Shown: in pieces, positions 47,653 to 50,820 of the stretch | Numbering within the stretch: position 1 is the first letter of the stretch | Layout: every line of letters starts with the position of its first letter | Source: Lutibacter sp. A80 | Lineage (GTDB): Bacteria > Bacteroidota > Bacteroidia > Flavobacteriales > Flavobacteriaceae | DNA length: 64,000 nt | Direction of reading: 5' to 3' | Assembly: GCF_022429645.1 (NCBI RefSeq) | Contig: NZ_CP092480.1 | Span: 833,501 to 897,500, forward strand | The notes under the pieces: model-generated | What the model saw: the letters and a program-made list of their open reading frames with translations, nothing else | Told to the model about the DNA's origin: nothing | The model's database searches: none | Made by a program: the position numbers and the translations under genes

Positions 47653-49107
47653 ATGGCTTTAATATTAAAAGGAGATAGAGAGATTAATGAAGTAAAATCC
47701 AGTAAAGCAAAAGCTTTAAAAGTTAATCTGAATAAACATACTTATGGAACTTTTGCAGAAATAGGTGCAGGTCAAGAAACTGTGCGTCATTTCTTTAGAG
47801 CTGGAGGTGCATCTGGTACTATTGCAAAAGCCATGAGTGCTTACGATAAAGATTTCTCTGATGCTATATATGGAGTCGAAGAAGACGGTCGTTATGTTAC
47901 TGAAAATAGGCTTAAAAAAATGCTTACCTATGAGGTAGAAATAATTGAAGACCGTTTAAGTAGAAAAACACATCCTAACAACATATTTTTCACCTATGCC
48001 AATACAGTAACCACCATAGATTTTGTTAAAAAATTTAAAGGCCATGGTTGGGTAGGTATTCGATTTCAATTATCACCTTTAGAAGATTACAGTGAAATAA
48101 TCTTACACATTCGATTTAAAGAAACAGATGCTAAATTACAACAAGAAACCCTAGGAGTTTTAGGAGTTAATTTAATATATGGTGCATTTTATTTAAACGA
48201 CAAACCTAAAGAATTATTAAAATCTCTGTATGATAATTTACATGAAGTTCAGTTAGAAATTGATATGATTAATTTTTCTGGACCTCGTTTTTCATATGTA
48301 GATAATAGGTTAATGAGTTTACTACTGGTAAAAAATGGTATGACAAATGCCGTAATGTTTGGTCCAGATGGTAATAACTTACTACCTGCACAACAATTAT
48401 ACAAAGCCAATATTTTAGCTCTAAGAGGTAGCTTTAGACCTGTTACAAAAGTAAACATGGATATGTTTAAACTTGCAGAGCAAATGTTTTTAAATGAAAG
48501 TAAGGTAAAAGCTGAAAACACAAAAATTATTTTTGAAATTACCTTGACAAATTTAAGTTCTGATGGAGAAATTGATGAAAGAGATTTCTTAGATCGAGCG
48601 GAATTACTTTGTTCTCTTGGACAAAATGTTATGATTACCAATTACCAAGAATACTATAAATTGGTTGAATATTTTTCAGAATTCACAAAAGAAAGAATTG
48701 CTTTAGCAATGGGTGTTCAAAGTTTTGTTCAAATATTTAACGAAAAATATTATCGTAATTTAAGCGGTGGAATTTTAGAAGCCTTTGGTAAATTATTCTT
48801 TAAAGATTTAAAAGTTTACTTATACCCTCTTAAAGATGAACGCACTGGAGAAATTAAAACTAGCGAAAACTTAAAAGTACATCCTCGTATGAAAGAATTA
48901 TACAAATTCTTTAAATACAATGGAAAAGTTATTGATATTAAAGATTTTGATCCAGAAATACTAGATGTCTTCTCTAGAAAAGTATTAGATATGATTGCTA
49001 ATGGAGAACATGGATGGGAAGAAATGCTTCCTATCGGAATTGCTGAAACCATTAAAAGTGAACGTTTATTTGGGTATTCAAAAAGAAAATTTTTCAAAAA
49101 ACACTAA
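47653..49107 (+). CDS. Conserved 484-residue protein of unknown function
   Basis: A soluble protein with no signal peptide or membrane segment. The N-terminus is highly regular: HTYGTFAEIGAGQETVRHFF then RAGGASGTIAKAMSAYDKDF. Later come a strand-helix series and ALAMGVQSFVQIFNEKYYRN. I recall close homologues across Bacteroidota being labelled nicotinate/nicotinamide-nucleotide adenylyltransferase, but the (H/T)xGH nucleotidyltransferase signature is not visible, so I do not use that name. It follows the transhydrogenase genes and has its own promoter element. Confidence 0.7.
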   Translation: MALILKGDREINEVKSSKAKALKVNLNKHTYGTFAEIGAGQETVRHFFRAGGASGTIAKAMSAYDKDFSDAIYGVEEDGRYVTENRLKKMLTYEVEIIEDRLSRKTHPNNIFFTYANTVTTIDFVKKFKGHGWVGIRFQLSPLEDYSEIILHIRFKETDAKLQQETLGVLGVNLIYGAFYLNDKPKELLKSLYDNLHEVQLEIDMINFSGPRFSYVDNRLMSLLLVKNGMTNAVMFGPDGNNLLPAQQLYKANILALRGSFRPVTKVNMDMFKLAEQMFLNESKVKAENTKIIFEITLTNLSSDGEIDERDFLDRAELLCSLGQNVMITNYQEYYKLVEYFSEFTKERIALAMGVQSFVQIFNEKYYRNLSGGILEAFGKLFFKDLKVYLYPLKDERTGEIKTSENLKVHPRMKELYKFFKYNGKVIDIKDFDPEILDVFSRKVLDMIANGEHGWEEMLPIGIAETIKSERLFGYSKRKFFKKH

Positions 49108-49166
49108 TTTTTTGCTATAAATTAAACCTTTATTAATTTTAGGTGTCTTATAATAAATATTCATAA

Positions 49167-49709
49167 GTGGATAACGATGCATTATTAGTAGCGCAACTAA
49201 AAGATAAAAAAACACAAGAACAAGCTTTTAGAAAATTAATGTCTTTATACAAAGAACGTTTGTATTGGCATATACGTAAAATTGTATATGTACATGCCGA
49301 TGCTGATGATGTTTTACAAAACACTTTTATAAAAATTTTTAGAAACATTCATTCATTTAAAGAAGAAAGCAAATTATATTCTTGGATGTACAGAATTGCT
49401 ACTAATGAAGCTATTACATTTATCAATAAAAAAGCAGCTAAACAACAAATAGATTTAAGTGAATTACAATTAAAATCTGTTGAAAATTTAAGTAACGACA
49501 TCGATTTTACAGGTGATGAAATTCAATTGTTGCTTCAAAAAGCAATTATTACATTACCGCATAAACAGCAATTGGTATTTAATATGAAATATTTTGATGA
49601 AATGAAATATAAAGAGATGTCAGAAATTTTAGATACTTCTGTTGGCGCTTTAAAAGCATCCTATTTTCATGCAGTAAAAAAAATTGAAGATTTCTTAAAA
49701 AACCATTAA
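49167..49709 (+). CDS. ECF-type RNA polymerase sigma factor
   Basis: 180 residues from a GTG start. Region 2 (about 23-90) includes DADDVLQNTFIKIFRNIHSF and SWMYRIATNEAITF. Region 4 (about 120-176) includes LPHKQQLVFNMKYFDEMKYK and DTSVGALKASYFHAVKKI, the DNA-binding helix-turn-helix. It directs polymerase to a small set of genes, usually its own operon. Two genes follow within 50 bases each: a single-helix membrane protein and a Spy-like exported protein. Confidence 0.95.
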   Translation: MDNDALLVAQLKDKKTQEQAFRKLMSLYKERLYWHIRKIVYVHADADDVLQNTFIKIFRNIHSFKEESKLYSWMYRIATNEAITFINKKAAKQQIDLSELQLKSVENLSNDIDFTGDEIQLLLQKAIITLPHKQQLVFNMKYFDEMKYKEMSEILDTSVGALKASYFHAVKKIEDFLKNH

Positions 49710-49744
49710 ACCTTAAAACTTTAAGTAAGTCTAAGCTAATAGTA

Positions 49745-50356
49745 ATGAACAATAAAGAAATACATAAAATGACTCCAATACTAGATAAAATGGTAGCAAA
49801 AAAACACGGTTTTAGCGTGCCAGAAGCCTATTTTAATACTATTGAAGATGGTGTATTTGCTGAAATAATTACTTCAAAAATTAATGTAAATAAAACAAAC
49901 TTTAAAGCTCCAAACGCTTATTTCGACACTGTTGAAGAGAATATTATTTCTAAACTTAAAACATATATAATTAAAAAAGAAACAGCACATTCAGTACCCG
50001 AAGGGTATTTTGAAACACTAGAAGATCAAGTTTTAAACAAAATTAAAACTACTTCAAAAGTTAGAACACTAAAAAAAGTTTCAAAATATATAGCTCCACT
50101 AGCAATTGCAGCTTCTTTTCTACTAATTTTTATATTGAACAATACACAAGACACAATTACTTTTGATAATTTAACTACTTCAGAAATTGAAGATTTTATA
50201 GATAATGATATGCTTCATTATGATGCCGAAAGTTTAGCAGCTATTTTTCCTGAAGTATCTCTAGATGATCTAAATTATACCGAAACTATACCTGATGCAG
50301 ATGTTGTAAACTATTTAAACGAAAATGATATAGATGCATTATTATTAGAAAATTAA
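49745..50356 (+). CDS. Putative anti-sigma membrane protein with three VPxxYF repeats
   Basis: 203 residues. The first 110, on the cytoplasmic side, contain three related units: FSVPEAYFNTIEDGVFAEI (about residue 24), FKAPNAYFDTVEENIISKL (about 56) and HSVPEGYFETLEDQVLNKI (about 87). One membrane helix (about 117-137) is followed by an acidic outer domain. Its position directly after an ECF sigma gene and its topology suggest an anti-sigma factor, although it lacks the ZAS His/Cys motif. The role is inferred; the repeats are seen directly. Confidence 0.75.
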   Translation: MNNKEIHKMTPILDKMVAKKHGFSVPEAYFNTIEDGVFAEIITSKINVNKTNFKAPNAYFDTVEENIISKLKTYIIKKETAHSVPEGYFETLEDQVLNKIKTTSKVRTLKKVSKYIAPLAIAASFLLIFILNNTQDTITFDNLTTSEIEDFIDNDMLHYDAESLAAIFPEVSLDDLNYTETIPDADVVNYLNENDIDALLLEN

Positions 50357-50367
50357 ACCTACTAGAA

Positions 50368-50820
50368 ATGAAAAAATTATTATATATATCGTTAATTTTA
50401 TTAATTGCAACAAATTCTGTTGTTGGTCAAAAAAAGAATAGACAAAATATAAAATTGTTAAAAACCGCATTTATTACAAATGCTATAACTTTAAAACCAG
50501 TTGAAGCTGAAAAATTTTGGCCAGTATACAACCAATACACAAATAAAATTCAACAGTTAAAAGTTGACTTAGAAAATAGCAAAACACAAGAATTTAAAAA
50601 TTCTGGAGGAATTGATAGTTTATCAGAATCTGATGCTCAAAAAGTTTTAGATCAATATTTACTTTATGAAAAAGAAGTTTATGAAACTAAAATTAGTATG
50701 ATTAAAGACCTTTCAACTATAATTTCAGCACATCAAATTATAAAATTGCAAAAAGCGGAACGCGATTTTAATAAACGAATGTTGCAAGAATACGGTAGAA
50801 GAAAAAGAATGGGACAATAG
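50368..50820 (+). CDS. Spy/CpxP-like exported helical protein
   Basis: 150 residues with a signal peptide (about 1-20, VVGQK). The mature part is entirely helical and charged (FITNAITLKPVEAEKFWPVY, then the IIKLQKAERDFNKRML stretch), like Spy/CpxP/ZraP periplasmic chaperones. It is the third gene of the ECF sigma unit, 11 bases after the putative anti-sigma gene, and could act as a periplasmic sensor or stress protein. Confidence 0.75.
   Translation: MKKLLYISLILLIATNSVVGQKKNRQNIKLLKTAFITNAITLKPVEAEKFWPVYNQYTNKIQQLKVDLENSKTQEFKNSGGIDSLSESDAQKVLDQYLLYEKEVYETKISMIKDLSTIISAHQIIKLQKAERDFNKRMLQEYGRRKRMGQ

Follow-up and report, generated by a model that had tools for sequence, protein, structure and literature searches.

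In the 64,000-nucleotide stretch of Lutibacter sp. A80 DNA analysed here (the window), the gene of an ECF sigma factor is followed by those of a membrane protein bearing short repeat units and of a small Spy-like protein. This set probably constitutes an autoregulated sigmaE-type envelope-stress unit of the Bacteroidia, in which an anti-sigma factor with a single transmembrane (TM) helix would wrap around its sigma factor, perhaps like CnrY or NepR. Confidence in this reading is held at fairly good, given that the structure model leaves the middle repeat disordered and that the compact form of sigma is common to the complex with the class I anti-sigma RsiW and to SigG1. The features of the unit are as follows.

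49122..49150, + strand: P1, TTAAACCTT-N14-GTCTTA, upstream of the sigma gene, exact match to TTAAACCWT-N14-GTCWWA
49167..49709, + strand: ECF sigma factor, RpoE/SigW-like, 180 aa, GTG start
49706..49734, + strand: P2, between the sigma and repeat genes, exact match to the same element
49745..50356, + strand: putative anti-sigma, one TM helix and three repeat units, 203 aa
49817..49867, + strand: repeat unit 1, VPEAYFNTIEDGVFAEI, by pattern
49907..49957, + strand: repeat unit 2, APNAYFDTVEENIISKL, by pattern
49994..50044, + strand: repeat unit 3, VPEGYFETLEDQVLNKI, by pattern
50087..50137, + strand: predicted transmembrane helix, approximate, YIAPLAIAASFLLIFIL, by hydropathy
50368..50820, + strand: Spy/CpxP-like secreted protein, 150 aa

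Gene content and distribution

Three open reading frames, all on the forward strand and at coordinates given beforehand, encode the sigma factor, the one-TM repeat protein and the Spy-like protein. The first matches Sigma70_r2 (PF04542, 8e-13) and Sigma70_r4_2 (PF08281, 8e-12) above the Pfam cut-offs and scores 86.3 bits against NCBIfam TIGR02937 (cut-off 42.9), and thus qualifies as an ECF sigma factor; its nearest solved relatives in a PDB profile search were SigW, AlgU and sigmaE. For the repeat protein, scanned together with three relatives, no family in Pfam or NCBIfam exceeded its cut-off, and no class I anti-sigma family was found among the Pfam and NCBIfam matches up to E 1. The protein contains no cysteine and therefore no ZAS motif (HxxxCxxC), which confirms what the preliminary description had claimed of it. 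An 18-residue window with a mean hydropathy of at least 1.6 is present in 131 of 131 members of the repeat-protein family, and in the window protein about 70 residues lie beyond the TM helix, with a short and acidic C-terminal tail. The window Spy-like protein matched nothing in Pfam and nothing above cut-off in NCBIfam, and neither it nor five relatives reached the curated cut-off for membership of Spy/CpxP (LTXXQ, PF07813). Of the five relatives scanned, one matched LTXXQ with 21.9 bits, where 24.3 is the cut-off, and another matched Metal_resist with 19.1 bits, where it is 29.2; a PDB profile search with the Spy-like alignment returned no relevant chain. A Synapsin_N match on L145 (E 1.7e-5, 24.8 bits, cut-off 27) was taken as chance. 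The sigma gene is preceded by that of a 484-aa protein (window positions 47653-49107) without a Pfam match above cut-off, which is also found in many loci of the genus.

A contig scan with the sigma alignment confirmed at least 576 relatives, the best 80 of which were kept for neighbourhood reading, and the closest matches among these were from Lutibacter. The repeat protein stands next to sigma in 79 of 79 readable loci (77 by pattern; L083 and L090, with degenerate units, by eye), one further locus, L026, ending ahead of the following gene, and the Spy-like third gene follows in all 76 loci whose flank is long enough to show it (73 recognised by pattern and 3 by eye). The proposed combination of an ECF sigma factor with a repeat-bearing membrane protein that lacks ZAS is therefore a real and conserved three-gene unit. 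The third gene likewise keeps its position throughout, but its Spy/CpxP likeness is weak, with sub-threshold LTXXQ or Metal_resist matches in two of five relatives. The search for the repeat across the Bacteroidota, run with a profile built almost wholly from genus sequences, matched 49 of 296 phylum genomes, every one in the window's own class, Bacteroidia, and left 247 without a match at that sensitivity. All 29 phylum-search loci that were read have the same order of sigma, repeat protein and Spy-like protein, by eye. As judged from these profile matches, the unit is present in several families of Bacteroidia, far beyond the window. Single-sequence searches with the repeat protein matched 23 of 60 relatives and 2 of 20 genera, and a single-sequence contig scan gave no match.

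Within its own genome, which holds 19 ECF genes and the primary sigma factor above cut-off, the repeat unit occurs in the next gene for the window sigma only. Many of the genus genomes searched carry, alongside the window-type sigma or instead of it, a sigma that is more distantly related (E about 1e-68 to 1e-83); it sits with a one-copy repeat protein in L025 and with a two-copy one in L192, and several genus genomes carry only this type.

Repeat units and structure models

The repeat protein holds exactly three [VA]PxxYFxTxE units, VPEAYFNTIE at residue 25, APNAYFDTVE at residue 55 and VPEGYFETLE at residue 84. Three copies of VPxxYFxTxExxx with a period of about 32 residues had been described from the sequence; the number holds, but the spacings are 30 and 29 and the second copy starts with A. 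When the first 110 residues of the protein were shuffled 200,000 times, 58 shuffles contained one unit and none contained more. Counted with a relaxed pattern, 131 repeat proteins carry one copy in 53 cases, two in 43, three in 31, five in 2, six in 1 and seven in 1, counts that overlook degenerate units (L032), may overcount (L053), and come from a set that includes the contig-cut L013 and L014 and takes the identical pairs L009/L027 and L022/L028 twice. Among the 131 proteins, spacings of 29 (seen 36 times) and 32 (seen 28 times) are the most frequent. Since 53 of the 131 relatives have a single copy, the basic function does not need repetition. An 18-asparagine run between units 2 and 3 of one genus protein (L005:1501-2157) indicates that the length of the linker can vary.

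Comparison of the units of 17 three-copy proteins from the genus gives 49% identity between species for equivalent positions and 38-39% for different positions, so that a unit resembles its positional counterpart in another species more than it does the other units of its own protein (39%). The five inner copies of the seven-copy protein L149 are mutually 67-88% identical, whereas identity to the other copies is 38-54% for the first copy and 38% for the last; the inner copies thus look recently duplicated, with distinct copies at the ends. The last unit of the 131 proteins keeps Y in 131, P in 125 and F in 123, although the search pattern itself fixes Y and nearly fixes P. Conservation within the genus extends to the N-terminal stretch ahead of the units, where H7, P11 and L13 are nearly invariant.

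Co-folding of sigma with the repeat region, which the preliminary description had suggested as a check, was carried out with AlphaFold2 on single chains obtained by read-through at loci where the sigma and repeat genes share a reading frame. Of 78 loci, 51 are of this kind, 41 of them with no stop codon other than TAA; the alignments used had 40 and 39 rows, and the models came out with moderate confidence. The three-copy target, L031, reached a pLDDT of 66.9 and a pTM of 0.54, with pLDDT values of 61 for the block of the first copy, 28-37 for the middle and 56-62 for the third. The one-copy target, L060 (pLDDT 69.9, pTM 0.52), gave 78 and 69 for the motif blocks and 46 and 39 for the flanking blocks; apart from sigma, nothing but the unit is ordered in this model. 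The modelled sigma takes a compact sigma2-sigma4 arrangement, as with wrap-around anti-sigmas: the sigma part of L031 superposes over both domains on 5wuq, 5uxx and 4cxf with Z of 16-18, with rmsd values of 2.7 Å over 158 residues for SigW-RsiW, 2.4 Å over 154 for CnrH-CnrY (4cxf) and 3.6 Å over 160 for RpoE-NepR. Polymerase-bound sigmas aligned over both domains gave an rmsd of 21 to 29 Å, and with sigmaE-RseA just 94 residues were aligned. The L060 model gave 3.6-3.7 Å against the wrapped forms, 12.4 Å against sigmaE-RseA and about 20-29 Å against polymerase-bound forms, a separation seen by rmsd alone because Z ties the wrapped forms with sigmaE-RseA (12.5 vs 12.2).

These models would fit a repeat protein that wraps around sigma. 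The compact form may, on the other hand, be an AlphaFold default, since sigma was folded only joined to the repeats and SigG1 (7qh5, by its title not an anti-sigma complex) also ranks high, with Z 16.0 and rmsd 4.4 Å. Nor does the arrangement decide for class II, because the best match is SigW-RsiW and RsiW, the partner of SigW, is classed as a class I anti-sigma (PMC7406223, PMC8103513). The idea that each repeat clamps sigma goes beyond these models: with a pLDDT of about 28-37 the model lends binding by the middle copy no support, and 53 of 131 proteins have a single copy.

The same observations bear on a rival in which the protein is a true anti-sigma but other N-terminal residues hold sigma, the PxxYF units serving for self-assembly or for contact with something else, for instance a protease adaptor or the membrane. 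The single unit of those 53 proteins, the disordered middle unit of the three-copy model and the conservation of H7, P11 and L13 ahead of the units would all suit such an arrangement, which is nevertheless unlikely in view of the strong conservation of the last unit described above and of the L060 model, where it alone is ordered outside sigma.

Promoter-like elements and candidate targets

An element derived from the sigma-upstream regions, TTAAACC[TA]T-N14-GTC[TA][TA]A, occurs exactly at P1 and again at P2, where the stop codon of the sigma gene (TAA, 49707-49709) falls inside the -35 box. Across loci, 94 P1 and 96 P2 regions were scanned with a score of at least 11 of 14 counted as a hit, L009/L027 entering twice in each set. 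With a free spacer of 8-21, 82 of 94 P1 regions reached this score, all 82 with spacer 14, as did 86 of 96 P2 regions, 80 of them with spacer 14; shuffled regions reached 11 with any spacer in 15.9% (P1) and 6.6% (P2) of cases. With the spacer fixed at 14, hits were found in 82 of 94 P1 regions against 67 of 4800 shuffles and in 83 of 96 P2 regions against 26 of 4800, and both elements were present in 69 of 94 loci. The stop codon stands at the start of the P2 -35 box in 75 of 96 loci, and is TAA in 94 of 96. Among the 29 phylum-search loci, P2 was found in 26 (6 of 6 and 20 of 23) and P1 in 20 (6 of 6 and 14 of 23), the shuffled control applying to the 6 alone. None of the 18 other ECF genes of the window's genome scored 11 at the fixed spacer. 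The promoter-like element ahead of the sigma and repeat genes appears to be new here, and with two promoters of the same type the unit seems to be under its own control.

With the reversed pattern as control, the window's genome holds 5 exact sites against 0, 28 genomes of the genus 84 against 3, and 119 genomes of the family, 101 of them with a site, 318 against 24. The five own-genome sites are P1, P2, one ahead of a separate Spy-like gene, one ahead of a lipoprotein-like gene and one without a good gene. Allowing one mismatch gives 18 own-genome sites against 16 in the control, so that single weak sites mean little. On the genus loci read for targets, which are not a random draw, 64 of 71 sites have an ORF start 5-160 nt downstream; the others are L159, L190, L191, L200, L210, L233 and L234, and the L191 site is the P1 of a sigma gene whose ORF begins within the element. 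By pattern, the 64 targets comprise 9 sigma genes, 7 anti-sigma genes and 48 others, and by a crude hydropathy rule 47 of these 48 have an export-type N-terminus, compared with 22 of 53 window genes under the same rule; 18 of the 48 are Spy-like by pattern. From the family, 30 sites were read, 26 with an ORF start 5-160 nt downstream and 4 without, and 17 of the 19 targets outside the unit are export-type and 4 Spy-like. Recurrent target families noted by eye are short YYxWxGKxYxKT proteins (L188, L214, L236, L240, L243, L249), LREEEKLARDVYL lipoproteins (L206, L213, L223) and EF-hand-like proteins (L212, L239, L242, L253). By eye no type IX gene lies downstream of any of the 18 own-genome sites, and a connection with type IX secretion, by way of the SM6 promoter of F. 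psychrophilum (PMC9723704) and of SigP (PMC4800418), was dropped.

Exact sites occur in 18 of 18 genus genomes with a window-type sigma (E <1e-95) and in 1 of 10 without (Fisher 1.4e-6), a p-value that overstates the evidence because the 10 genomes may be related and the cut between sigma types was drawn after the E-values had been seen. The exception, G017, has 5 sites, a more distant sigma, its own two-copy repeat protein and a P2. That genome would fit the view that the element belongs to another regulator, either a different ECF or the primary sigma with an activator, and that the unit is merely one of its targets. This is improbable, however, since the window sigma alone among the 19 own-genome ECF genes is flanked by the element on both sides, and since sites are absent from 9 of the 10 genus genomes that lack a window-type sigma, even with the more distant sigma present in 8 of these 10.

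Under the favoured reading of an autoregulated envelope-stress unit, the N-terminal VPxxYFxxLE units would keep sigma compact and unable to join RNA polymerase, the anti-sigma wrapping around it perhaps in the class II manner of CnrY and NepR. In the predicted topology, the acidic C-terminal tail together with the Spy-like protein would sense envelope damage in the periplasm. The released sigma would be expected to use elements of the P1/P2 type, with P1 driving the sigma gene itself and P2 the genes of the anti-sigma and the Spy-like protein; the wider regulon would consist of exported proteins, a second Spy-like one among them. The feedback through P2 would be negative and independent of the sigma message. 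The copy number of 1-7 probably tunes affinity or capacity, which is offered as a guess.

A bolder version, which is doubtful, sees here a new anti-sigma module of the Bacteroidia in which a short linear sigma-binding unit evolves by copy number from 1 to 7. One membrane protein would then soak up several sigma molecules like a sponge, or grip just one through avidity, with the repeat count setting capacity and release threshold, and sigma itself would re-supply its brake through the promoter built over its stop codon. If one sigma left the middle copy unoccupied, as in the model, that would suit the sponge version.

Relation to known systems and meaning

The cnr genes run in the order cnrYXH, which differs from that of the window unit, and CnrX has a Spy-like fold. 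The CnrYXH system nonetheless resembles the window unit, as interpreted here, in that an ECF sigma is combined with a periplasmic sensor and with a membrane anti-sigma that is short and does not bind zinc. The modelled sigma superposes on CnrH from the CnrY complex (4cxf) with Z 16.2 and an rmsd of 2.4 Å over 154 residues; the window unit differs in its repeat units and exported-protein targets. CnrY is described as embracing sigma2 and sigma4 with two helices, with CnrX as the metal sensor (PMC4598750), and CnrY and NepR are listed as class II anti-sigmas (PMC8103513; CnrY also PMC7406223). That the unit is likewise a metal-responsive system rather than one of general envelope stress, as these same three kinds of part and the one third-protein relative near Metal_resist (19.1 bits, cut-off 29.2) could indicate, has little likelihood, given that by eye, from the first 75 residues and with Pfam run on three own-genome targets, 0 of 64 genus targets resemble metal-efflux genes.

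The element described here would have its AAC-N17-GTC register in common with the sigmaE consensus, GGAACTT-N15-GTCTAA. E. coli RpoE-RseA is further comparable to the envelope-stress unit proposed here in that RpoE is among the nearest solved sigmas, the targets are of envelope type and a site lies ahead of the sigma's own gene. In contrast, no similarity of the repeat protein to RseA was found with Pfam, NCBIfam or the PDB profile search, and the modelled sigma cannot be superposed over both domains on RseA-bound sigmaE. The PDB profile search with the repeat alignment gave nine matches up to E 5 (best E 0.044) with no anti-sigma among them, its LRR and globin matches being taken as chance; the anti-sigma types described so far are reported to have little sequence in common (PMC7406223).

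Also from the Bacteroidota are the Dma/Reo anti-sigmas of Bacteroides, described with Das/EcfO (ECF21) as membrane anti-sigmas beside an ECF sigma in envelope stress and as spanning both membranes (PMC13088901, PMC9308784, PMC13114119). The repeat protein, with 203 aa and about 70 aa past the TM helix, is unlike them in being too short for an outer-membrane beta-barrel. In the window's genome, the gene after each of the ECF genes at L117, L118 and L124 (C1:2368199, 2989870 and 774667) encodes a larger one-TM protein that, judged by eye, resembles the Dma/Reo barrel type. The unit profile gave noise against the larger own-genome ECF partners (L118 E 1.5, L120 E 3.4; L117 and L124 absent up to E 20), and the idea of an anti-sigma box common to the unit and Dma/Reo-like proteins, prompted by a P...W..L..KL stretch near the TM helix of the partners in L117, L118, L120 and L124 that by eye resembled the unit, was dropped. 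With Spy/CpxP (LTXXQ) the third protein has in common that it is small and secreted, with sub-threshold LTXXQ in one relative and in the own-genome target L163, and it differs in falling below the curated cut-off and in being encoded with a sigma factor. Deletion of sppA in F. columnare is reported to raise an ECF gene called algU (log2 1.64) along with envelope changes (PMC13236525). No naming of the repeat, the promoter or the regulon was found in the open-access literature searched; an earlier mention elsewhere may exist.

A class I anti-sigma domain is reported near only 6% of Bacteroidetes ECFs (PMC7406223), which raises the question of how most of them are held. The unit offers a widespread candidate brake without a family model, together with a likely promoter and a list of targets, and so makes the question of ECF control directly testable. 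Natural variation from 1 to 7 repeats makes it possible to ask how the number of binding sites sets a stress threshold, and the second promoter over the sigma stop codon, if true, would be a compact coupling of activation to its own brake. Taken together, a putative anti-sigma built of short units, for which no family model was found, lies in a real and widespread unit that fits an autoregulated envelope-stress system.
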